From Membranipora membranacea (lineage: Eukaryota > Bryozoa > Gymnolaemata > Cheilostomatida > Membraniporidae): DNA of 64,000 nucleotides. This document shows, one piece after another, positions 1,617-61,171 of this stretch. Under the pieces are notes generated by a model. That model ran no database searches and was not told the origin of the DNA. It saw only the letters and a program-made list of their open reading frames with translations. The DNA is taken from the NCBI GenBank assembly GCA_914767715.1, contig OU612075.1, forward strand, positions 15,436,001 to 15,500,000, written 5' to 3'. Position numbers and translations under genes: made by a program. Position 1 is the stretch's first letter. Every line of letters starts with the position of its first letter.

Positions 1617-1675
1617 AGCTCTCAGTAAGAATTGTCATCATATATCAGACATATGCTTTAAATCATCATAGAGCT
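1617..1675 (-). ncRNA. SNORD27: U27-type C/D box snoRNA, copy 1
   Basis: Read on the minus strand it has a terminal stem (AGCTCT with AGAGCT), C box ATGATGA, D' box CTGA, C' box ATGATGA and D box CTGA. The D' guide contains AAGCATATG, complementary to CATATGCTT near the 5' end of metazoan 18S rRNA; the fifth base upstream of D' pairs with the residue called A27 in human 18S. That is the guide of human U27 (SNORD27). The copy sits between decayed RPS3 exon relics, as the copy in intact RPS3 intron 4 sits between exons 4 and 5. Confidence 0.85.
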
Positions 1676-1790
1676 TCCAGGATCCAGTTTAACATAATTC
1701 TTTATTGGCATTGGAGTTGTGAGCCAAGCAGAGTAGTCTAGTAAACCATTTAATAAGAGTACACTGAAACAATGAGTACAAACAGGAGGC

Positions 1791-1905
1791 ACTTACCCTG
1801 TGGGAGCAGTCATTCAGCTGTGTTGACATACTCTCTGCTAGGCTTCTTATTGTTAATCATTAATCCGGTGACAACAGTCACATCTTTGCCCCCTGTCCTG
1901 TTTAA
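1791..1905 (-). pseudogene. RPS3 exon 4 relic, copy 1
   Basis: Base-level similarity to RPS3 exon 4 (9165-9272) is obvious, for example 'acatactctctgctaggct' and 'ctgtcctgt'. Small indels destroy the reading frame. The flanking splice dinucleotides are kept: a minus-strand GTAAGTG donor at the low-coordinate side and an AG acceptor at the other. Confidence 0.8.
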
Positions 1906-1976
1906 CACAACAAATTTCCATCATTTCCTACATTTTTCAACCACACATAACCACCATAACTTGATCCATCAAGATG

Positions 1977-2045
1977 TGTTCTCAGGCTATATTGTTCACA
2001 TTGTGTGGAACTCGAAAATTAAAACAATTTAACATCATGGAACAG
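1977..2045 (-). ncRNA. C/D box snoRNA type B, copy 1
   Basis: Copy of the snoRNA in RPS3 intron 3. On the minus strand: C box ATGATGT just inside the terminal stem, D box CTGA next to GAACA, and a conserved guide region upstream of D. It lies between exon 4 and exon 3 relics, as in the parent gene. I cannot assign its rRNA target. Confidence 0.7.
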
Positions 2046-2119
2046 TTGAAGTGTATCATGCAGCTTCCTGTTAGGCTCATAGAAAAACAAAACAATAATC
2101 TTGTCACCAGAGATAAGAA

Positions 2120-2230
2120 CCCACCTCTAAGCTGGCATCCATCCATGATGAATCTGGGCACACCTTAGCAGGCTCTGCTGACAGTCATGCCTCCCGATAC
2201 CATGACTAGTCACTTCCTTAGTCTCAAGCT
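2120..2230 (-). pseudogene. RPS3 exon 3 relic, copy 1
   Basis: Matches RPS3 exon 3 (9492-9666) over 'tgaatctg', 'gcacacc', 'tagcaggctct' and 'ctgacag'. It is shortened and frameshifted. The donor motif on the minus strand, AGAG then GTGGGTT, is the same as in the intact gene (GAG then GTGGGTT). Confidence 0.75.
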
Positions 2231-2305
2231 ACAAACACAAGCAAAGTTTAATACATGCTATGTATTATATGGAACAAATAGTTATAGCTACGACACTACT
2301 TGAAG

Positions 2306-2373
2306 TTGTTCTCATTCAAGATTGTCTAAATGGTATTCAACTCTAACTATAGCTTTAAAACATCATAGAACAG
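2306..2373 (-). ncRNA. Degenerate C/D box snoRNA type C, copy 1
   Basis: Aligned with the better copies at 6422 and 7509. The C box ATGATGT is kept, but the D' region that reads GCATATGTCTGA elsewhere is scrambled here and the D box reads ATGA. Probably a dead copy. Confidence 0.5.
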
Positions 2374-2520
2374 TAACAGAGAGTACTGAATCAGATTGAG
2401 CTGCTGGTTCATGTTGTCAGTTATAATGTAATGTGTGTCCATGGCAGCCCGTCAAAGGTTTTATCCTAGATTAATCACTGCCTAGATTCTGGGTGAATAA
2501 TGATTGCATTGTAAGTTACG

Positions 2521-2668
2521 TACCTCAAGTGAACCCATCAGGGAAGTTGAACCACTTTGTAACAGAGCAGTCAATTGTCTAATCCTTTCTCCTTTCCCAC
2601 CCAGATAACCTTTTGCAGCCTGGTATCAAGGCAACATGATTTGTAACTTGATTCCACTGAACCCTGCA
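2521..2668 (-). pseudogene. Chimeric relic: RPS3 exon 5 start fused to exon 2 end, copy 1
   Basis: The high-coordinate part (about 2613-2668) matches the start of RPS3 exon 5 ('caaggcaacat', 'cttgattcca'), including the acceptor. The low-coordinate part (about 2521-2600) matches the end of exon 2 ('gggaagttgaa', 'ctaatcctt'), including a GTACGT donor. The join bypasses everything between exons 5 and 2, so the result is one internal exon with a working-looking acceptor and donor. Confidence 0.75.
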
Positions 2669-2749
2669 AGAAAAAAGTAGAAATATATGATTACTTGGGT
2701 TTATAACAGAGTGAGAGGAGCCATGTCAATGAAAGTGACATATTATTAT

Positions 2750-2808
2750 AGCTCTCAGTAAGGATTGTCATCATAAGTCAGACATATGCTTTAAATCATC
2801 ATAGAGCT
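2750..2808 (-). ncRNA. SNORD27: U27-type C/D box snoRNA, copy 2
   Basis: All boxes and the AAGCATATG guide are intact on the minus strand. A few substitutions occur only outside the boxes and guide, for example in the region before the D box. Confidence 0.8.
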
Positions 2809-2849
2809 ATCAGGATCAGGTTGTGTCCGAGTTATTTGAACTTGCTGAA

Positions 2850-4095
2850 TGCGTTGAGGCTGGTTAGCTTTCAAGTGTGGCTCAAAATATTCCTAGACAT
2901 GACTATAATACCTTATAAGTTTTGTGAAGTGATGCAATGGCAGTGGATTACTGTGTTCAGTGTTTGACTAGATCTGTATCACGTTAGGTGTGTGACCCTC
3001 TAATACTTGTATGCAGGAGAATTTCTTCTCTTCTCCCAGTCGCACAGTTTGATGGTTCAGTCATCTGCTAAAACACAAATAATTTTTATGATGGAATACT
3101 GTTATCTGCAGGCATGCAAGCTTACAAATTTTGCTACAAACCTTCACATCATTATTAGCGCTACTTCTATTATATGACTCTGTGTACATTAGCAACAGAT
3201 TCAGAGGAGAACAATCAATTGGTGTCCATGCCATGGTCATATCAATTATGATGGTAAACTGTTAGCAAGGTATACATTATACACAATGTTATTGTGCAGT
3301 GGTAGGAAATCAGACAGCTATCCTGATCTCCCTATCCTGCCAATATTTTATCTAGCACTGTTCCTAGTGACTAAACTTCTATACTGAAGTCAACCAGCTG
3401 TAACAATGCAATGGTAAGTCCTACTTTTTGACTGAATTAGTTCTCAACAAATCTAGCTGAAGAAGAAGTCTTTGGTTTGTGATTCCAGTCGTTCTTTTAA
3501 CTTGTCGAATAAATTCAGGATTATTGGCGCACTAGTGTGCTAGACCCGACTTCAAATTTAAATACCTGTGAAGTGAAGCACTGGCATGTGTGGTCTTTAG
3601 GGTTGAGTTTGATCAGCATCACTTAGAGTGTGTCACTAAAACACTTGTATGTATGACAATTTCTTCTCCCAGTCCCACAGTCTGATAGTCAAGTGATCTG
3701 GAATAAATAAATCACATATATTATATACCGCTATGAATCCGAGTACCAGAAAATCAATGGGTGCATTTCAGGAGAAAATATTGGTATCAACCTCAAATAT
3801 GAAATTGAATTGTTGGATGTTATAGAAGCAGTACTCTGTGCTTCACATATCATGTTATTGCGCAGTCGTAGAAAATAAGACGGAACATCTGATTTTCTTT
3901 GGTAATTGCCAATATTTGCTCTAGCATCGTGCCTAGTGGCTCACTCCGCATTATACTGAAGTCAACCAGCTGTTCACATCGCAAAGGAAGGATTTCCCAT
4001 GTGTAAGACTCTGCCATACCATAACTGATGTCATAGCATTATGCAAGCCTTATAAAGTTTTAACAAATAAAGCCGGTTTACCAGCGGGCCCTGCA
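2850..4095. repeat. Repeat unit A, second duplicated block
   Basis: Direct duplicate of 1-1440, offset about 2650-2860 bases. Near-identical stretches include 437-620 against 3294-3490 and 1205-1320 against 3850-3970. The block separates snoRNA copies 2 and 3 of the RPS3-derived array. Confidence 0.75.
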
Positions 4096-4099
4096 AAGC

Positions 4100-4425
4100 T
4101 TAAGATTTTGACGTCCATGGTCAGCAAACAAAATCATAACCACCTGCATCTTTACAAGACATTATTAGCACATGGCTTCATTAACAGTGTCCTACTCACC
4201 GAGCCTGTAACATTCCAGTTCTTCCTAGCGAAAAAATTGGCCTCCCTGACAGGTACATCATTGGTAATATCAAATGTGTCTGCAAAAAAAAGGAAAAGGC
4301 ACACCGTAAGGAGACCAATCTAAATAAGCCAGATAAAAGTATTGCAATCCTACATAGTGAGGCAACCACCGCAATATTCATCAGCTTGTAAACAATCGGT
4401 AATGAACACATTAGGAGTAAAGCAG
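4100..4425 (-). repeat. Repeat unit X, with a hydrophobic reading frame
   Basis: A segment containing 'ggcaaccaccgcaatattc' and 'acatcattggtaa' recurs at about 1440-1515 (partial), 4695-5000 and 5575-5735 (partial). On the minus strand the two long copies encode related hydrophobic peptides sharing VSLRCAF. This copy has lost the downstream reading frame relative to the other (DTF..TNDVPVR appears in another frame). I recognise no family. Confidence 0.45.
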
Positions 4426-4451
4426 GGTATAAATAGTTAGAATACATATGT

Positions 4452-4510
4452 AGCTCTCAGTAAGAATTGTCATCATATATCAGACATATGCTTTAAATCA
4501 TCATAGAGCT
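4452..4510 (-). ncRNA. SNORD27: U27-type C/D box snoRNA, copy 3
   Basis: Sequence identical to copies 1 and 4 over the boxes, guide and terminal stem on the minus strand. Confidence 0.85.
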
Positions 4511-4694
4511 ACGAGGATCCAGTTCAACATAACTCATTATTGGCATTCGAGTCGTGAGCCAAGCAGAGTAGTCTAGTAAACCATTGAATAAGAGTACACT
4601 GAAACAATGAGTACAAACAGGAGGCATCACCGATGTCATAGCAATTATGCAAGCCTTAGAAAGTTCCAAAAAAAAAAGAAGCCAGGCCCTGCAA

Positions 4695-5000
4695 AGTTTT
4701 AAGATTTTGTCGTCCACAGTCAGCAAACAAAATCATAACAACATGCATCTTTACAATAAATATTATTATCACAAGTCCAACTCACTGTGTTGGTAACAAT
4801 CCAGTTCTTTACGGCAATCAAATCGGCCGCCCTGACAGGTACATCATTGGTAACTTTAAATGTGTCTGCAATAAAAGTTAAAAAGGCACATCGTAAGGAG
4901 ACCAACATTACCAAGCTATAGAAAAGTATTGCAATCCTACGCAGTAAGGCAACCACTGCCATGTTCAACAGCTTGTAAACCATTAGTAATGAACACATTA
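4695..5000 (-). repeat. Repeat unit X, second long copy
   Basis: Minus-strand reading frame 4720-4998 (92 codons) has a hydrophobic N-terminal third, then ADTFKVTNDVPVR. It aligns with the frame at 4196-4447. The shared protein-level pattern could be real coding or simply recent duplication. It lies directly beside snoRNA copy 4. Confidence 0.4.
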
Positions 5001-5040
5001 TTAGGAGTAAAGCAGGAAATCCATATAAGAAAAGATATAT

Positions 5041-5099
5041 AGCTCTCAGTAAGAATTGTCATCATATATCAGACATATGCTTTAAATCATCATAGAGCT
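5041..5099 (-). ncRNA. SNORD27: U27-type C/D box snoRNA, copy 4
   Basis: Intact terminal stem, C, D', C' and D boxes and A27 guide on the minus strand; the same sequence as copies 1 and 3. Confidence 0.85.
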
Positions 5100-5187
5100 A
5101 CGAGGATCCAGTTCAACATAACTCATTATTGGCATTCGAGTGACCCACCCCGAAGTACACTAAACAATGAGTACAAACAGGAGGCAC

Positions 5188-5298
5188 TTACCCGTGGGAG
5201 CAGTCATTCAGCCGGGTCTACACACTCTCTGCTAGACTCTTTATTGTTGATAATTAATCCGGTGACCACTGTCACAGCTTGGCCCCTCTGTCCTGTTT
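5188..5298 (-). pseudogene. RPS3 exon 4 relic, copy 2
   Basis: Same landmarks as the relic at 1791 ('gggagcagtcattcagc', 'ctctctgctag', 'ctctgtcctgt'). It is frameshifted and closer to the 1791 copy than to the intact exon. Confidence 0.75.
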
Positions 5299-5361
5299 AA
5301 CACAACAAATTTCCATAATTTACTATGTTTTTAAACCACACACTTGATCTATACTGCAGAC

Positions 5362-5432
5362 ATGTTCTCAGGCTATATTTTTTCACATTGTGTGCAACTC
5401 GAAAATTATAACATATGAACATCATAGGACAG
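5362..5432 (-). ncRNA. C/D box snoRNA type B, copy 2 (slightly decayed)
   Basis: Retains the D box with its flank and the guide region. The T run in the guide is longer by one and the C-side stem has changes (ATAGGACAG against ATGGAACAG). Function uncertain. Confidence 0.55.
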
Positions 5433-5762
5433 CCAAGTATCTCACACAGCTTTCTCTTTAGCTTACAGATAACCACAAAAATATCTCGTTACATGAGATA
5501 AGAACCATCTCTGAGCTGAGTGAGAGGTCAACAGATGGAATCAGCTGATTTCTACGTAACTAACCTCTAATAAAACAAGGATTAAACAATCCAGTTCTTC
5601 CTGGTGGTAGAACTGTCCACCTTGACATGTATAGCAGTATAGCATGTATATAAGTTTGTCAGACATACACAGTAAGGCAACCACCGCCATGTCCAACAGC
5701 TTTTGAACGATTGTTTATGAACACATTAAAAAATAAGGATCAAAACAGTAAATCAATATAAT

Positions 5763-5792
5763 AGCTCTCAGTAAGAATTGTCAACATAATCA
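5763..5792 (-). ncRNA. Truncated U27-type snoRNA
   Basis: Only the D-box half is present ('agctctcagtaagaattgtc'). The homology stops before the D' box, so the A27 guide and C box are missing. Non-functional remnant. Confidence 0.6.
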
Positions 5793-5910
5793 ACCTTATT
5801 AATTATCAGCATTCAAGTTGAGAGCCAAGTAGAGGAGCCTGGGACACTATCTAATAAGAGTGACCTGCTCTAGTTGAACACATGAAATGGTGTGAACAAA
5901 CAGGAATAAC

Positions 5911-6023
5911 TTACCTTGACGGAACATTCTTACAGCTAGGTCTACATACTCTCTGCTAGGCTCAACTCTGTTGATCATCAATAGTCCACAATGGCCATAG
6001 CTTAGCCTCTCTGTCCTGTAACA
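5911..6023 (-). pseudogene. RPS3 exon 4 relic, copy 3 (best-preserved frame)
   Basis: Minus-strand translation still contains EPSREYVD and AVR, matching residues of RPS3 exon 4, but the surrounding residues are changed (RTERLSYGHC where the intact gene has [10 protein letters not shown]). This is a coding relic near the point of losing similarity, flanked by kept splice motifs. Confidence 0.8.
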
Positions 6024-6097
6024 TAGAATACACATTTCATAGTTTTCTCATTGATTTTCAACCAAGCATGGTAATAATAAATATCCATACTTTAGAT

Positions 6098-6167
6098 CTG
6101 TTCTCAGGCTATATTGTTCACTTTGTGTGTAACTCAAAAATTAAAACAATTTAACATTATGGAACAG
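6098..6167 (-). ncRNA. C/D box snoRNA type B, copy 3 (C box damaged)
   Basis: The D box and guide are kept, but the C box reads ATAATGT on the minus strand instead of ATGATGT. Probably inactive unless the change is tolerated. Confidence 0.5.
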
Positions 6168-6220
6168 TATCTTATGCAGCTTCCTGTTTAAACCATTGAA
6201 ATATCACAATACAACCTTGT

Positions 6221-6350
6221 CTCTAGAAATAACAACCCACCTCTGAGCCTGCATATATCCATGATAAATCTGAGCACATCTTAGCAGGCTGCCTTGACAG
6301 TCAGGCCTCCTAATACCATGACTATTCACTTCCTCAGCGTGTAACTACAA
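6221..6350 (-). pseudogene. RPS3 exon 3 relic, copy 2
   Basis: Matches exon 3 over 'aacccacctctgagcctg', 'tgataaatctgagcacatc' and 'tagcaggct'; frame lost, donor side retained. Confidence 0.7.
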
Positions 6351-6421
6351 TCACAAGAAAAATTTAATTCCTAATACATATTGCATGGGACAAATGGTTT
6401 CAGCTACAGCACTACTTGAAG

Positions 6422-6488
6422 CTGTTCTCATTCATGATTGTCTACATGGTATTTAACTCAGACATATGCTTAAAGCATCATAGAACAG
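6422..6488 (-). ncRNA. C/D box snoRNA type C with A27 guide, copy 2
   Basis: Minus strand: terminal stem CTGTTC with GAACAG, C box ATGATGC, then AAGCATATGT followed by the D' box CTGA. This is the same A27 guide as in U27 but in a different snoRNA body. The D box reads ATGA, a departure from CTGA. It is homologous to the snoRNA in RPS3 intron 2. Confidence 0.6.
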
Positions 6489-6539
6489 TAACGGAGAGTA
6501 TTCAATCAGATTGAACTGCTGGTTCCCGTAATCAGTAAC

Positions 6540-6683
6540 CTACCTTAAATGTCCCTCTTGGGAAGTTGTATCACTTTTGTTCCAACACAGTCAATTGTCT
6601 AATCCTATATCCCCAAGAAAACCTTTGACAGTCTGGTCCCGCGGCAGCTTGATTCAATTTAATCCTGTAAGACAAAAGGAGAA
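6540..6683 (-). pseudogene. Chimeric RPS3 exon 5/exon 2 relic, copy 2
   Basis: Same exon 5 to exon 2 fusion as at 2521-2668, with the same join point (exon 2 'ccaagaa..acctttg' running into exon 5 'gtctggtccc'). The exon 5 part has an internal deletion. Sharing the join means the fusion happened before the unit was amplified. Confidence 0.75.
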
Positions 6684-6752
6684 ATATCTATGATTACCTG
6701 GGTTTATAACAGAGTGTGAGGAGTCAAGCCCATGAAAGTTATATATTATTTT

Positions 6753-6811
6753 AGCTCTCAGTAAGGATTGTCATCATAAATCAGACATATGCTTTAAATC
6801 ATCATAGAGCT
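6753..6811 (-). ncRNA. SNORD27: U27-type C/D box snoRNA, copy 5
   Basis: Intact boxes, stem and A27 guide on the minus strand. It shares the variant AATCC before the D box with copy 2. Confidence 0.8.
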
Positions 6812-6974
6812 ACTAGGATGAGGTTGTGTTTGAGTCAATGATTACAAGGGCTATGTTCGATTAACTTGCGTTACAATGTTCTCTACTTCTATGAATACCA
6901 GAGATCTTAGTAACAGCCAACATATCTCCTTCAGCTTTCTCTCACAGATGACTACAAAATTATCTTGTCACATG

Positions 6975-7080
6975 AGGTGAGAACTTACCTCTGAGCCTAG
7001 AGCCACATCCCCGACACGGCTCTTCATGATGGATCCATGCTCACCTTGGCAAGTTCTCCTGACATCCATGTGATCAAAAC
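6975..7080 (-). pseudogene. RPS3 exon 3 relic, copy 3
   Basis: Weaker match to exon 3: 'cttacctctgagcct', 'ttcatgatgga', 'cttggcaagttctcctgac'. Frame lost. Confidence 0.5.
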
Positions 7081-7152
7081 TTCAAACAAAACAAGCGTAT
7101 GATTGAATATACATTAAAATGCACACTTCTAGCTGCATAACTACTTCAGATC

Positions 7153-7221
7153 TGTTCTCAGGCTATATTTTTCACATTGTGTGTATTTCGAAAATTAAAA
7201 CAATTGAACATCATGGAACAG
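7153..7221 (-). ncRNA. C/D box snoRNA type B, copy 4
   Basis: Very close to the RPS3 intron 3 snoRNA: stem, C box ATGATGT, guide and D box CTGA all kept on the minus strand. The most likely functional duplicate of type B. Confidence 0.7.
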
Positions 7222-7284
7222 CTAATAAATATCTCAAAGTTTTCTGTAAGCCTTGCAGGGAATAATGTTTAGGAAATTTGGAAC

Positions 7285-7425
7285 CTACCTCTGAGCTTGC
7301 CTGAGCCAACTCTACATCCTTGCATGACTAATCTAGGCACACCATGGCAGGCTCCTCTGACAAGTCAGGCTTCCAAGAAGATGGTACCACATGGATTCAC
7401 GCTGCCACAGCTAACACCTTCAATC
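7285..7425 (-). pseudogene. RPS3 exon 3 relic, copy 4
   Basis: Longer match to exon 3 ('acctctgagcttgcc', 'gcacaccatggcaggctc', 'gattcacgctg'), interrupted by indels. Lies between snoRNAs B and C as exon 3 does in RPS3. Confidence 0.7.
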
Positions 7426-7508
7426 AGATGCATAAACAATTCATAATACATTTTACAAGGAAACACAATGTGGTTTGTTACATCTAGCCACAGATCTACT
7501 ACTTGGCG

Positions 7509-7575
7509 CTGTTCTCAATTATGATTGTCTACATGGTATAAAACTCAGACATATGCTTAAAACATCATAGAACAG
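7509..7575 (-). ncRNA. C/D box snoRNA type C with A27 guide, copy 3
   Basis: Stem CTGTTC/GAACAG, C box ATGATGT, D' guide AAGCATATGT and D' box CTGA. The D box position reads TTGA. Homologous to copy 2 and to the RPS3 intron 2 snoRNA. Confidence 0.6.
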
Positions 7576-8426
7576 CGTGTCTCAAAGAAGGTATTATAAA
7601 AACAGTATTCAGTTTTTCACTACTTGAAATCAACAAAGATTTTTTAGCAAAATAAAGATAATTGATATACTCATTTGTTCAAATAACATACCATCTCAGT
7701 TCGAGCTAGGGATTACTGCCAATCAGTTGTTTATCCGCACCGTACATCTAAGGGTAGGGTTGTTTGATGCAACAGACTTCTGCTTCTCATCTACAATATT
7801 GATACAAAATACCACTGTTACCCTGTGTATGGAATACCCTACTGGTGGAGTTATAGGCATGAATGACTAGTAACCAACATTACACAATTACAAATGTAAT
7901 CCAAGAAAAAGGAATAAAACTTTTCAATTATGGCATGATTCTGTAGGTATTGTACTACGTGTTCGAGCTCAATCGCTCACACGGGTCCAATAATACTAGA
8001 CTGATTTGGAAGTTGGTGGCAACAGGAACAAGATATAATGTTGAAAGAATTCACACATTTTCATGTATTAAGTATTGGTTGTGGCTACTTACTTGTGAGT
8101 GATTTGGAGGTAAAGTAGGCCACCTTGTGAGGCTTTCAGCCGAACAATACTTAACGGAAAGTGGTTATAACCATTACCTGACCTCTTACATGTGTAACAA
8201 CATTCTGACACCATTATTGTGGATTGATCTATTCATTTCAATTAGAAAGGGCAACACAATAGCATATGAGTGAGGATACCAATCCAAAGGTTTGTACAGT
8301 TAGTGAACAAATTGTACAGAGAGATTTGACCTGTGAACAGTTTGTCACAGCATCTTTGACAACATCCCCATTTTACATGTGGGACCTAAGAACAATAACA
8401 CTGCGGTTGACTCTGGCAATAGATGT
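7576..8426. other. No gene seen between the snoRNA array and RPS3
   Basis: AT-rich sequence. A 64-codon frame at 8266-8460 overlaps the RPS3 3' end on the opposite strand and has no supporting features. If the array to the left is transcribed separately, its promoter would be expected here, but I see no TATA box or pyrimidine tract that I would call. Confidence 0.4.
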
Positions 8427-8468: not shown

Positions 8469-10875
<2,407 letters not shown>

Positions 10876-13138: not shown

Positions 13139-15404
13139 TTAGATTCTAACAGGGTTTAATAGCTGTAGTCGCCTTGGCTTCTTTGGGGCAAACAGTCGCA
13201 CCAATTCCTCATCCTTAACTTTCTTGAACAGGTCCTTGTGCTTGTACCCAAGGACCTGGGTATTGAGGGCGAGCTGACTCATAGTAGATCGTATCTTGCT
13301 CTTAATGAATTTCTGCGTTGAGTTGCAGCGCTCAACCTCAGCGCTGGTGACCGCCTGAGTGAGATGCACTTTTAGTAGGTACTCCATGTTTGGGTACATC
13401 CCGGATGCCAGGGCCAGCTTGTACGCTTCCTTGACGTTATTGATGGAGGTGTGTTGCTGGCTCTTCAAAAACCGAGTGTGGGTTTCCTGCACAATAGTAT
13501 TATGAGATGGCAGGTCTAAATTGTGCCGCTTTGCAAGGCTGAGGATCTTCTGTTTGTACTCATCATATGAGATGTCTTTTGAAACGCAGGGGATTAGCAG
13601 GAATCCTTCTCTCACCGCTGTAGATATATTCTTAGTGAATCGCTGTTCCATTTCCTCTATAAGGTGGTCAACGTATGGGAAGAAGTAGGGCCGTCTGTAA
13701 TACTCCTTAGCAGTGTCATTATCGTCTCTGTCTCCCTGTAAGCCGAGGCACATGTAGCTCCTCCCCAAACATAGCAGACATGTCACACCAAAGCTTGTCA
13801 AACATTATGTCTGACCTAGCAGACTTCAAGTGACCAATCACCTCGCTGATGTTTTGGTATGCCCCATGGATGTCCTTGCTTGAACCTTGAAGCTGCTGGC
13901 TCAATGGCAAGGTATACCCTAGCATGTGCTCACTGATTGTGAAAGCCGCCACAAATTTGGATGACTGGAAAAACTTCAGTAGCCCCCCCCCCCCGGCGTC
14001 TGCAGCAGTCTTACAATCATATCCAGATCCTGGGGAAAGCATCATTTCTAGCACCCGGATGATATGTGGGTATAGCATCTTGAGTTCAATGAAAGTGTTA
14101 TGACGCTCCATCCGGCGCATTTCACAAAGCATCTTGACCTTTTTTACCTTCATTTCGTTGGGGAGAATTTCCCTCAAGGCATGTTGCCTTTTGGGAGAAG
14201 ATTTGAAGAAGATCCCGCGAGCCTTGGTGTTCTCCATCAAGACCTTAAACTCCATGATTTGAGATGTCTTGTTTAAAGCCAGATTGAGACAGTGGCTTGA
14301 GCAGTGATGAAACTCTGCGAGCGGTTGCATTTCTGCAATTCGAGTTTGGCATCCAGAAATATGGCCAGTCATGTTCCCTGCCCCATCGTATGTCTGCCCT
14401 CAGCAGTCCTGAATGTCAAATCCGTGGCGAGGAAGGTAGTCAACAATACTCCTGTTGATCTCTAGGCCACTTGTACTGTCGACAGCAATGTACTCCAGTA
14501 GTCGTTCCTGTACATCCCCACTCACTGATACAGTTCTCACTACCACACCCAGCTGCTCCTTAGTAGATACATCGGTCACTTCATCTGCCGACACACTGTA
14601 GATAAACTTTCCTTTTTGACTTCTGGCCTCTTTCTTTATCTCATCGTGGATGGAATCAAGAATGATCTCTAACATATCATCTTGGGCAGCAGAACTGACA
14701 TACATGGCATTGTTCGCACCAGTTCGAAGATGCTCCTCTAGTATGGTATCACATTAGTTCACACGAAATGCCACTATAGCCTTGAAGTTGCCGAGGTTGA
14801 CACTTTCACTCTCACCTTCCTCACCAATTGCTGGTAACCTGCCATCTTTCTTTCCTCGCCTTGCAAATCCTCGCTCCACACAAAGTCTCATACATGCGAA
14901 CAGTGAGCCCATGACCTTCTTGTTTTTGGCTACTATCTTGGCATGGGCCGATGACTGGGTTTCAAGAGCTTATTGTAGTTGCCCTGCCTGAACTTGCATG
15001 AACTTCTCCATCTTCAGCTGAGACTCCTTGTGATGTAGGGCATCCATATGTGTTTTCATTTTACTATGAATCTTCTTCCAGTCCTTGTATGGTTCGTTTA
15101 TGAGGTAGCTAGCAGGAGTGCCACGTTCAGGGTTGCATGGCCACAGCTTGCAAGGAACACAGTAAACACCATCTTCTTCTTTGCTGTATCCAAGACAGGG
15201 ATATTTATCAAAAGACTTGATTGAACATTTTCTGCCACTGGATCCGGATGCATTTTTCTTTTCAGTGACCTGGGTGACTGGAAAGCTGAATGATGTGTCG
15301 GCAAATTGCTTGTTCTTTGCAAGTTGATACTTCAAATCAGCAGTCAGCAGTGAAGGAAGTCTGGCCATATCATAACGTGAACCAACAGCGGTGTTTTCAT
15401 TCAA
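13139..15404 (-). pseudogene. hAT transposase pseudogene (TTF-type zinc finger, DUF4371, hATC)
   Basis: Read on the minus strand. 15404-14973 carries a TTF-type zinc-finger-like segment (RKCSIKSFDKYPCLGY, then VYCVPCKLW). 14705-14403 carries the first part of the RNase H-like core with SADEVTDVSTKEQLGV. 14372-13719 continues the core with HCSSHCLNLAL. 13801-13139 ends with the dimerisation region (TSAEVERCNSTQKFIKSK). Breaks: in-frame stops at 14970-14972, 14754-14756 and 14400-14402, and a frameshift near 13720-13800 where GRQR should run into DDNDTAKEYYRR. The stop at 14400 sits where relatives have Arg (CRGQ.YDGA), consistent with CGA to TGA decay. A C12 run interrupts 13983-13994. Confidence 0.85.
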
Positions 15405-16199
15405 AGGAGGCGTATGCAGCGTTGCCTGATCTGGAAGAAGAATCGAAGCCCCTGATGTTGGTTCTGGCTGGGCTGATGGATCTTTGTCAGAGCCTGCAAA
15501 AGCGGGATTATACTGAAGTATTAATACATGTACATGAAAAAACTTAGTTGTACATGATGGTACAAATTACTCACTATAAATTAGATTTCTGTGTTATTTT
15601 TACGGTATCTCAGAGCAACATTCAAACTAAACTTCATGCAGATAAGTTAACAACACAAAACAAGCGGCATTATTCAAACTAAACTTCATGTAGATAAATT
15701 GACAATACAAAACAAGCGGAAAAAAGGGTACCCACACAGCTTGAAACATGATTATTAGACTAATTCTGGCCCTCTGATTGCATCACTTCACTCTAAAAAG
15801 TTAAGTTTTCATGAATAAAAATTTCAATTGATTTTTTCAATTCCATTTACGTGATACCCATGAAAATCCTTGTAACAAGTCCAATTTGCTTGCATATATC
15901 AAACCTCAAGATTCATATTTAGGCACATTTTGAATTTATTTAGTTATTATCACCAGAAATCTATATTGAATAAAAGTGTCTACATCACCATTCACCAATA
16001 CGTGCTAACAAAACAAGGGATATTATCACAAAAAGAGCTCAGCTACTGCCTGCCCAACACTGGAAAAATCAAGAAGATAAAATAATTTTTGGGAAACTTA
16101 CAGATATCCAAGTCACCGGCCACATGAAAAATAACAAACTGAGAAAAACTAACTCAAAGTTTGGCCTTTAAGTGGCTGACAATCTTACAGTTACCAGGA
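15405..16199. other. No gene seen
   Basis: AT-rich. A pair of short near-repeats lies at about 15620-15665 and 15675-15720 ('caaactaaacttcatg', 'aacacaaaacaagcgg'). Possibly the 5' flank of the hAT element. Confidence 0.4.
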
Positions 16200-58562: not shown

Positions 58563-59974
58563 GGTAAAACCTAACCTAGTAGTAACCATCATAGGATTGG
58601 TGGCTTAGTTTGAGCACTACTATAGGCTACCATTTACTGAGTGAATGTGTGTATGTATGTATGGAGGTTTTGGTAGATAAATCCATTTATTTATTGTCCT
58701 AACTCAGTGATTGGGTGACTAGACGTAAGTAGGCCTATCTATGAGTGTCGGGATAATACGAACATAATAATGACAAACTGAATCGGTATTATATATATTA
58801 TATAGCTTTACTCGGCATTCACTTCATGAGAGTGCCTTGTGTTTGAAAGCCTTTACATTGCTTGCGTTCAGTATCAATTACCCGTGACAACAGCCAGGGA
58901 AAGACATGATATGACAAACTCTATTTATGATTCAATTTATTTACTAAACTTGATCAATTGTTGCAAAGGGTAGTCTTATTTCTTACCCTGTTTGGTAATT
59001 AAGTGCCATGTGGTTGATACCGAATTATGTTGATGGGCTTGCCAGCCCAATCCGCCAACAACATTCTTCTGCTCAGCAGATGTAATGATAGCCATCCCCT
59101 CATTCTCCAGCTTCCGCCTAGTTAAAAGACATATTGGCTGCCAATTGCTGAAAATCTCCCTTCCTAGTCTCTTTGAGTGAAGAGTGTATGAAGCTTGTCA
59201 GCAAATATCAAGAAATGAGTTGGAATTACAGGTTTACATGCCAATATTTATGAATTGCAAGTTTAAACAACCACTGTTTTCCATTTGTGCACAGTTGACA
59301 AGTTTGGCACACCAATGTTATGTGATAAGGTCTATTTTGGAAGGTTGTTGCCCTTTATTTTATATACCCTGATCCTAAGATTCACAAATGACTTCTTAAT
59401 ACAATAAAAGACATGGCGTCTAGGATTGGTTTCTAATGGTTGAGGTTATAAACGGTTTTCTTTGAGTTCCAAGTTTCAATCTTGGCAGTCGTAGTCTTTA
59501 CATCTTTAGTACTGCATTCCTACATCTATGTCAGCTGTGTTTTTGCAAACCCAACATGCAGGTTAGAAGTCCTCCCCCCATCTCTTCAATATGAAAGAGT
59601 AGCCGAATTACCCCATGGTATGGGTTTAGGGTGTGCCTTAAGCAATGTGTGTATCAGCTTCTGTACTCTAGTGAAGATTATTCTCCACACCGGAATAGAG
59701 CATGGCGGTTAGAACAATGAGTTAATGACTCCTTGGTTAGAATCACACAAAACATCCAGATAATTATTATCTCCTTGACCTAACTTTACTTTTATCTCTA
59801 ACAGATTCTTTTTTTGTTGTCATGATCTCCAATTCTTCCCCAGTAAGCAATCCATGTTAAGGCACGTTGTAATAAGCAATGGGAATTATTTGTCAAAGCT
59901 TCTGCTAAAAACAATATTAAAAGGCTTCTCATTTTTATTGTGTACAGAACTGTGGCGGAGTCATTATCCGAAGA
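58563..59974. other. No gene seen; GT49 gene upstream region
   Basis: Two stretches (59440-59490 and 59698-59750) have weak tRNA-like B boxes ('gtttcaatcttggca', 'ggttagaatcac') and may be old SINE debris. 'tgtacag' at 59941-59947 could be the acceptor of a 5' UTR intron before the GT49 start. Confidence 0.4.
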
Positions 59975-61171
59975 ATGAGATTCTGTGCTCTACTTAGAAG
60001 AAGAGTTTATTGGGTTATAGCTGCTGCGGTCCTCATCCTTATAGTCTATAAAATATCTAGTCATAAATCTGCACCCGATCATTTTCCCGTGCTGAGGAAG
60101 TCTTTTCTTCGAGGAGGACAAAATGTCCTCTACGGTCCTTTTGAATCAGAACACGTGAGCAAAGCTGAGAAGAATAATCACTCTGTAACATTGGCCACTC
60201 ACACATCGATGAATAACTTATACAGACTACAGATCGTTAGCCTAGTGTGGAACTCTCCCATATCAGTGGCAGTATGGGCTCATGGAGATCTGACTGAGCT
60301 TGTAGAGCTGTCGTACCTGCTCACTCTAGCGTGTAGTGAAGGACGGTCTCTCACCATATCAATACTTGTGCCACTTAGTCAGCCTCATACAGTAGACATA
60401 ACCAGAATCAACTGGGACCCTATACTGAAGCCCAATGCCAAAACATGCAGTCAGAAGAATTTACACAACAGATTTTACTCATTACGAGCGGAGACAGGCC
60501 AAAATTATGCCAGTAAAGATAGATTACCTTATCCTAATAACAAACTGAGAAACATGGCGCTCGGTACAATCACAACCTCTTATGTCATGGTGACAGATAT
60601 AGATATGACTCCCTCCGTTGATATGGACAATCATATAATGAAATTCTTCCATCACTGGCAGGACAATAACTCTAACAAAGCTTACGTTGTCCCAGTATTT
60701 GAGAGTAAAGATGTGAATACAAATCAGTGGAGCATTGCTCGTCTGCTCAAAGAGTGGCAGTCTGGGAAAGTGAGGCAGTTTTATGTGGAGACTTGTCCTC
60801 AGTGTCAGGGTGCGACTCAGTACACTAACTGGATAGAGAGACAAAGTACGGAGGTCTCAGCTATGAAGAGTCACAGTGTACCTTATGCACCCGGCTGGGA
60901 ACCATTCATAATTATGTCTGCTTCATCCCACCCTCTGTATGATGAGCGATTTGAACAGTTTGGATATAATCGTATGAGCCTGATTTGCCAGCTCCATATG
61001 AGTAGTGTCACATTCGACGTGTTAGACAGGATATTCCTAATGCATGATGGGTTTAAATCTGAGGAGGGATTCCATGCAGAGAAGGATAGGGAACTGAGTG
61101 CAAATGAGAAACTTTACTTTAAATTTAGATCAGAACTTTCTATCAGATATAACACAAAGCGCCAGTGTTAG
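59975..61171 (+). CDS. B4GAT1: Golgi GT49 glycosyltransferase, B4GAT1-like, intronless coding region
   Basis: 398 residues. Short cytoplasmic tail, then a single membrane anchor at about residues 12-27 (YWVIAAAVLILIVYKI): a type II Golgi protein. The catalytic part has YPNNKLRNMALG (186-197), the DxD metal/nucleotide-sugar site VTDIDMTPS (206-214; D208, D210), PVFE (240-243), WEPF (308-311), YDERFEQFGYNRMS (322-335) and HDGFK (357-361). These are the marks of family GT49, in which human B4GAT1 adds glucuronic acid to prime the laminin-binding glycan of alpha-dystroglycan and the LARGE proteins extend it. A single GT49 domain without a GT8 domain favours B4GAT1 over LARGE, but invertebrates have several GT49 paralogues, so the substrate is uncertain. 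No defects. Confidence 0.85.
   Translation: MRFCALLRRRVYWVIAAAVLILIVYKISSHKSAPDHFPVLRKSFLRGGQNVLYGPFESEHVSKAEKNNHSVTLATHTSMNNLYRLQIVSLVWNSPISVAVWAHGDLTELVELSYLLTLACSEGRSLTISILVPLSQPHTVDITRINWDPILKPNAKTCSQKNLHNRFYSLRAETGQNYASKDRLPYPNNKLRNMALGTITTSYVMVTDIDMTPSVDMDNHIMKFFHHWQDNNSNKAYVVPVFESKDVNTNQWSIARLLKEWQSGKVRQFYVETCPQCQGATQYTNWIERQSTEVSAMKSHSVPYAPGWEPFIIMSASSHPLYDERFEQFGYNRMSLICQLHMSSVTFDVLDRIFLMHDGFKSEEGFHAEKDRELSANEKLYFKFRSELSIRYNTKRQC

Follow-up and report, generated by a model that had tools for sequence, protein, structure and literature searches.

A tandem array derived from RPS3 and COPB2 as a likely non-coding multi-snoRNA host gene in the bryozoan Membranipora membranacea

The origins of genes that host small nucleolar RNAs (snoRNAs) in the introns of non-coding transcripts are hard to read, because the exons of such genes evolve fast. 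An array of decayed exons and intronic snoRNAs lying beside the ribosomal protein gene RPS3 of Membranipora membranacea raises the question of how a coding gene could become such a host. The array was found in a stretch of 64,000 nucleotides (hereafter the window) of contig OU612075.1, assembly GCA_914767715.1, positions 15,436,001 to 15,500,000 (G000:C11:15436001-15500000 in our numbering), and the search space was the entire assembly (339 Mb, 18 contigs). An initial annotation, made from the window's letters, had read the array as an RPS3 duplicate converted into a non-coding snoRNA host. Substitution rates and a library protein, P0132, support that reading, except that the host is a chimera of RPS3 and a second gene, COPB2. 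We consider it likely that duplications involving these two genes gave rise to a non-coding multi-snoRNA host gene, and the array appears to make no recognisable protein.

The array occupies ~10.6 kb of the minus strand to the left of RPS3, from 7575 to ~3.0 kb past the window's left edge, and consists of three partial units, each combining decayed RPS3 exons and C/D snoRNAs (U27, B and C) with decayed COPB2 exons and H/ACA snoRNAs. The recurrence of partial tandem units in RPS3 order that the initial annotation described was borne out, as relics of exons 2, 3, 4 and 5 and the three intronic snoRNAs are found on the minus strand at 7575-1617. Its boundary at 1617 was drawn too far inward, and the RPS3 relics, while real, are not the sole content, since 1-1460 and 2830-4900 hold four H/ACA elements and two COPB2 exon types. 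The exon 5 and exon 2 relics are fused: in two chimeric exons (6664-6544 and 2663-2524) the start of exon 5 runs into the end of exon 2 with acceptor and donor both kept. Each fusion probably marks where the copies of a tandem duplication meet, the duplicated unit having spanned exons 2 to 5. All but one of the 12 exon relics compared with RPS3 carry indels relative to it, and similarity between the repeat blocks, which differ in make-up, is mostly 68-94%.

Comparison with 20 kb beyond the left edge (L002, in which a position equals the window position plus 10000) showed that the array continues there for ~3 kb, with two full U27 copies (L002 8469-8525 and 9870-9926), one B, one C, one Hb-type H/ACA element with its ACA and one truncated element of type Ha. 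It ends in relics of the last exon and 3' untranslated region (UTR) of RPS3 (L002 7296-7222, 7122-7063 and 7057-6980; 78-79% identical), where the AATAAA of RPS3 is altered and another AATAAA starts at L002 6965 (minus). Farther left within the 20-kb flank no array sequence was matched. In the outer unit, the intron between snoRNA C and exon 3 contains ~360 bases (L002 ~9160-9520) that match no other unit and are perhaps an insertion.

The parent of the C/D part is intact. RPS3 has five exons (10875-10846, 10229-10005, 9666-9492, 9272-9165 and 8656-8469, minus), with its intronic snoRNAs lying 51, 68 and 97 nt from the next exon, and it provides the single match to PF00189, the RPS3 C-terminal domain, found across the assembly. 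No relatives of RPS3 were confirmed in genome_contigs or viral_contigs. The second parent became apparent from two exon types, E and X, and two H/ACA types, Ha and Hb. Neither at the DNA nor at the protein level did E and X show a convincing match to RPS3; four X stretches folded no better than shuffles, and exons of unknown origin were dropped as an explanation once a locus on contig C9 showed COPB2. A genome search with Ha returned 12 places, five in the array and seven at C9:17743919-17753364, where local comparison recovered eight H/ACA copies, one X and one E. Four exon readings from the open frames of this locus, when joined, match coatomer beta' (COPB2; E 2.1e-104 over a partial coding sequence), and all eight H/ACA copies have an H-box motif and an ACA near the expected places. 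The array E and X relics are 74-82% identical to COPB2 exons, with stops in the reading frames of the X copies; judging by this match, they are exons of the WD40 region. Given that E, X and the H/ACA elements all match the COPB2 locus, the array is therefore a chimera of two coding hosts. Leaving out X 11-156 and E 4786, differences from COPB2 number 8/127 and 12/127 for Ha, 12/131 and 18/129 for Hb, 22/134, 29/159 and 35/169 for X, and 18/83 for E, with 23/84 and 32/84 in adjoining intron stretches. The Ha copies at 424 and 3283 both show the hairpin, H box, hairpin and ACA arrangement, and the Hb at 3852 qualifies by its boxes only, its minimum-energy fold lacking two hairpins. The 5' end of 18S rRNA is a conceivable target region for the H/ACA elements.

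The COPB2-like gene (L016 3915-10000 and L017 1-3365; G000:C9:17743915-17753365), with its eight H/ACA copies of two related types placed between exons, is by its sequence a second, coding, amplified snoRNA host. A sub-threshold mir-34 family match also falls in this region (L016 7188-7261, minus; 29.3 of 53.4 bits, E 0.0068).

Among the C/D snoRNAs, all five full U27 copies of the window keep boxes C, D', C' and D, the closing stem and the guide, in agreement with what had been claimed for them, and both full copies left of the window keep all boxes and the closing stem, bringing the array total to seven. The five window copies and the RPS3 copy match Rfam SNORD27 (RF00086) at 31.7-35.0 bits against a gathering score of 52 bits; as even the best lies below this threshold, we name them U27-type and do not file them as SNORD27. 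They have in common with SNORD27 the boxes, the stem and the guide AAGCAUAUGU directly 5' of the D' box CUGA, which aligns to the SNORD27 consensus below the Rfam cut-off, but are 57 nt long against 71 nt. By the five-base rule, under which the target base pairs five bases before D', this guide would point to A27 of 18S rRNA. Type C is a real element but is better described as a U27 paralogue, with its 3' half common to U27; the A27 guide is present in the array C copies at 7507 and 6420 and in one in L002, and is missing from the RPS3 copy. Of 14 places in the genome that match the 15-mer of the U27 guide, six further ones were rejected as U27 for want of a box C, and a U27 30-mer had no match in viral_contigs. 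Within the window, the distance to the next exon is 67-89 nt for nine of the array's 12 full-length C/D copies (U27 at 6754 and 2751, four B and three C) and may be inherited from RPS3; the other U27 copies lie farther away, two before E exons at 173 and 176 nt and that at 1618 at 591 nt. A passage of a review places the optimum for C/D snoRNAs ~50 nt upstream of the branch point (PMC8162545).

Evidence of constraint comes from substitution rates, with masks based on GT-AG exon bounds (looser bounds gave similar results). In non-overlapping window blocks, differing sites amount to 34/509 (0.067) in snoRNAs, 242/1434 (0.169) in introns and 134/656 (0.204) in exon relics, so the equality of snoRNA and exon-relic rates that would have undermined the initial annotation is not observed; no rotation of the mask, out of 10,000, gave a value as low as that of the pooled snoRNAs. 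Across eight partly overlapping window blocks, U27 (1/171 against 108/774 in the introns of the same blocks), Ha (4/127 against 48/307), B (35/280 against 225/1063) and C (16/138 against 126/513) are each slower than introns (p 0.001 or less), and exon relics are, if anything, faster (206/967 against 380/2125, p 0.08). The unit left of the window is separate from these tests. There the pooled snoRNAs differ at 16/386 sites (0.041; rotated mean 0.111, with 106 of 10,000 rotations as low), B (2/72 against 30/273, p 0.03) and Hb (8/131 against 54/209, p 5e-6) are slower than introns, and exons are again faster if anything (80/532 against 101/1053, p 0.08). Pairwise U27 identity, calculated after excluding comparisons within the trio of closest copies, falls from 0.94-0.96 inside the element to 0.45 and 0.57 in the ten flanking bases on either side.

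The splice signals have likewise survived, as initially stated for the donor and acceptor motifs. RPS3-derived sites in the window keep the donor GT in 9/10 cases and the acceptor AG in 9/9 (a 19-nt exon 3 stub has no acceptor end to count, and its donor is the one lost), and those of the left unit in 3/3 and 4/4, giving 12/13 donors and 13/13 acceptors for the array. Of the COPB2-derived exons, X keeps 5/5 donors and 4/5 acceptors, and E keeps both sites in three of four copies, the fourth, near 5583-5640, being eroded. The window's RPS3-derived splice dinucleotides are thus kept at 18/19 compared with 0.50 of 1055 in relic exon bodies (p 4e-5 assuming independent sites, which these are not).

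Use of these sites is indicated by a protein library, which was queried with the predicted reading of the chimeric exon 5/2 joined to exon 3. The single candidate returned was P0132 (JGI; 68 amino acids, from a 2012-base contig; E 2.3e-17), which reproduces the join of 2663-2524 (exon-2 part), 2228-2125 and 1897-1797 at 67 of 68 residues, the remaining one being a stop in the window. It extends into a third exon relic that was absent from the query and stops short of the exon-5 part of the chimeric exon. It is unreadable in one frame of unspliced DNA: the middle segment lies in another frame than the outer two, and two introns have therefore been removed at the predicted sites, namely those holding C and B. 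The RPS3 protein is 100% identical to library entry P0001, whose contig of 1121 bases is shorter than the gene; hence, the library source seems to hold cDNA of the species. The part of the array covered by P0132 is, on these grounds, almost certainly transcribed and spliced, and the remaining introns are predicted from their kept sites. The spliced transcript that the initial annotation expected is accordingly indicated for the joined exon 2, 3 and 4 relics of one unit. The features are collected in Table 1.

Table 1. Array elements and the parental RPS3 gene with its snoRNAs, in window coordinates
Start	End	Strand	Feature	Basis
11	156	-	Exon X relic of COPB2 origin, lacking the acceptor AG; array extends further left (L002)	
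424	550	-	H/ACA snoRNA Ha	fold, z -2.87
878	1026	-	COPB2-derived exon X relic	
1203	1333	-	Hb copy; ACA and closing stem lost	fold, boxes
1618	1674	-	U27 copy, all boxes	Rfam, boxes
1797	1897	-	Exon 4 relic, joined to exon 3 relic in P0132	
1975	2046	-	B copy	boxes
2125	2228	-	Exon 3 relic, both flanking introns removed in P0132	
2304	2373	-	C copy, probably dead; CTGA missing from both D' and D	boxes
2524	2663	-	Chimeric exon 5/2; exon-2 part joined to 2228 in P0132	
2751	2807	-	U27 copy, all boxes	Rfam, boxes
2912	3064	-	COPB2-derived exon X relic	
3283	3409	-	H/ACA snoRNA Ha; two hairpins, AGAUAA hinge, ACA	fold, z -3.34
3566	3697	-	COPB2-derived exon X relic (WD40-region exon)	
3852	3982	-	H/ACA-type element Hb; H box AGAGCA, ACA kept	boxes
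4200	4279	-	COPB2-derived exon E relic, 81% to COPB2	
4453	4509	-	U27 copy, all boxes	Rfam, boxes
4786	4865	-	COPB2-derived exon E relic, 75% to COPB2	
5042	5098	-	U27 copy, all boxes	Rfam, boxes
5192	5292	-	Exon 4 relic	
5360	5433	-	B copy	boxes
5512	5530	-	Exon 3 stub, 19 nt, donor GT lost	
5762	5792	-	Truncated U27, 3' part only	
5915	6015	-	Exon 4 relic	
6097	6168	-	B copy, box C changed (ATAATGT)	boxes
6241	6344	-	Exon 3 relic	
6420	6488	-	C copy with intact A27 guide and D'; box D reads ATGA	boxes
6544	6664	-	Chimeric exon 5 start/exon 2 end; acceptor and donor kept	
6754	6810	-	U27 copy, all boxes	Rfam, boxes
6989	7079	-	Second exon 3 relic	
7151	7222	-	B copy	boxes
7289	7417	-	Exon 3 relic, 77% identical, 6 indels	
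7507	7575	-	C copy with intact A27 guide and D'; box D reads TTGA	boxes
8469	10875	-	Intact RPS3 gene, parent of the array's C/D part	translation; P0001
8754	8810	-	U27-type C/D snoRNA, RPS3 intron 4	Rfam, boxes
9341	9412	-	C/D snoRNA B, RPS3 intron 3	boxes
9718	9797	-	C/D snoRNA C, RPS3 intron 2; diverged U27 paralogue without A27 guide	Rfam, boxes

Within RPS3 itself, intron 4 contains an extra exon-like stretch (8923-9100, minus) ending in a donor-like motif, CTGTAAGT, and intron 2 contains a 53-bp palindrome (9924-9976; 94% self-complementary), at which weak matches to microRNA families are probably due to chance. The RPS3 locus is adjoined by frames that we take to be hAT-like transposases (13139-15566, minus). 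Elsewhere in the window, a B4GAT1-like glycosyltransferase is encoded in a single frame (59966-61168, plus), with PF13896 in its relatives and the bryozoan Watersipora subatra providing the nearest named one (54%).

The array might instead be a tandem pseudogene array that is transcribed and spliced by inherited signals, its snoRNAs being passengers that resemble one another through gene conversion or recent copying. We regard this as improbable, although it draws on several results that weigh against a host gene under selection. Three U27 copies are identical, and those at 4453 and 5042 share ~100 identical bases including flank, which may reflect recent copying or conversion; the identity of U27 copies was dropped as proof of selection by itself. 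Conversion from RPS3, on the other hand, would import RPS3 variants, whereas all seven full array copies share three differences from the RPS3 U27, and at sites with different flanks the conservation of U27 goes no farther than the snoRNA itself. Some copies of the other classes are broken: type C has ATGA or TTGA instead of CTGA at box D in all three window copies and the L002 copy, one B (6097) has an altered box C, and the Hb at 1203 fails as an H/ACA element through the loss of its ACA. The initial statement that the snoRNAs are kept thus holds for U27 (5/5) but not for C (0/3 with CTGA at D), B (box D kept in 4/4, box C in 3/4) or Hb (ACA lost in one of two) in the window. Among the rates, in the window blocks Hb is no slower than introns (14/130 against 39/271, p 0.32), C is no slower in the non-overlapping set (10/69 against 87/372, p 0.10), and in the outside unit U27 falls short of significance (0/114 against 17/571, p 0.07) and C is faster than introns (6/69 against 4/177, p 0.02). 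Set against this, the slower evolution is not confined to U27, being seen likewise in H/ACA and B. Finally, the identification of the P0132 contig as cDNA is an inference.

A coding role, in which the array specifies small proteins or a truncated RPS3-like product and the snoRNAs are secondary, strikes us as very unlikely. P0132 is a 68-residue open frame, yet in the window that frame carries a stop, and the longest ATG frame obtained when the window exons are spliced as predicted (84 amino acids) is reached by 13% of 500 shuffles. Relic codons differ from RPS3 less at position 2 (0.164, against 0.276 and 0.270 at positions 1 and 3; p 0.001), and two exon-3 relics compared over 33 codons have a nonsynonymous divergence (dN) of 0.21 below a synonymous one (dS) of 0.42. 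These values, too, count against a wholly non-coding history, in that coding constraint may have persisted temporarily, or the array may yield a small peptide; the indels in nearly all relics compared, and their divergence as fast as or faster than that of introns, speak against a maintained protein. An assembly artefact from collapsed or misjoined haplotypes or repeats is scarcely credible, for although tandem repeats are error-prone and P0132 differs at one residue, the blocks differ in sequence and make-up, the array sits in a 23 Mb contig, and P0132, from a separate data source, has the same exon 2, 3 and 4 relics in the same order.

In light of the above, we propose that the non-coding host gene originated when a copy of RPS3 arose adjoining the real gene. 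A tandem duplication from exon 5 to exon 2 would then have repeated the middle of this copy and created the chimeric exon, after which pieces of COPB2, comprising introns that carry H/ACA snoRNAs and two exons of the WD40 region, would have joined it. Repetition of the joint unit could have yielded the three partial units that end in the RPS3 last exon and 3'UTR, and the array exons would have lost their reading frames. An RNA polymerase II transcript might start between the RPS3 polyadenylation site and 7575, where CTTTCC at ~8161 and GTAAGT at 8092 are candidate signals only; a 5'-terminal oligopyrimidine start is typical of non-coding snoRNA host genes. The spliceosome would join the exon relics through to the RPS3-derived last exon, and the introns would be trimmed to U27, B and H/ACA snoRNAs, which may provide more guide dose for rRNA modification, including the putative A27 of 18S by U27. 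More tentatively, the functions could have been split, with RPS3 keeping the protein and the composite non-coding gene taking most of the guide RNA dose; this possibility, to which we give less than even credence, is based on the apparent relaxation of the RPS3 copies (no A27 guide in intron 2, box C ATGATGT in the intron-4 U27) compared with the seven full array U27 copies with all boxes.

In mammals U27 sits in UHG. Like UHG/SNHG1, gas5 and U17HG, described as non-coding snoRNA host genes in passages of PMC2653536 and PMC11405852, the array has many snoRNA introns, poorly conserved exons and a spliced RNA of little coding potential; unlike them, its coding parents are still recognisable, one adjoining and one elsewhere in the genome, and its C/D and H/ACA parts trace back to separate coding hosts. 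Long non-coding RNAs that are fossils of ancestral coding genes, as portrayed in part of PMC5577775, have likewise lost coding and kept gene structure, but there the coding genes were lost as such, whereas the array is a duplicate in which intronic RNAs were kept; the words 'snoRNAs' and 'host' are absent from the main text of that paper. Chicken RPS3, according to a table row of PMC2653536, has U15-type snoRNAs in introns 4, 5 and 6, and is similar as an RPS3 host with paralogous snoRNAs in several introns; the bryozoan locus differs in its snoRNAs (U27 type and B) and its non-coding duplicate. Neither RPS3 nor U27 occurs in the main text of a paper on sponge ribosomal protein introns (PMC3412847). 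Among the titles and abstract openings returned by searches of a literature collection outside which most subscription journals lie, none describes a ribosomal protein gene turned non-coding snoRNA host (related literature: PMC3511168, PMC3488318, PMC4394429, PMC4515611 and PMC2246290).

Both coding parents of the array survive, its junctions are readable and a spliced product is present in a library; the order of events, that is, duplication, chimeric exon, frame loss and capture of the second host's introns, is therefore directly testable. If our proposal is true, a snoRNA host gene has been caught in the act of arising. If the split of functions should also be true, it would amount to a division of roles (subfunctionalisation) between the exons and the introns of a host gene, and would offer a way for C/D and H/ACA hosts to merge into a single non-coding gene.

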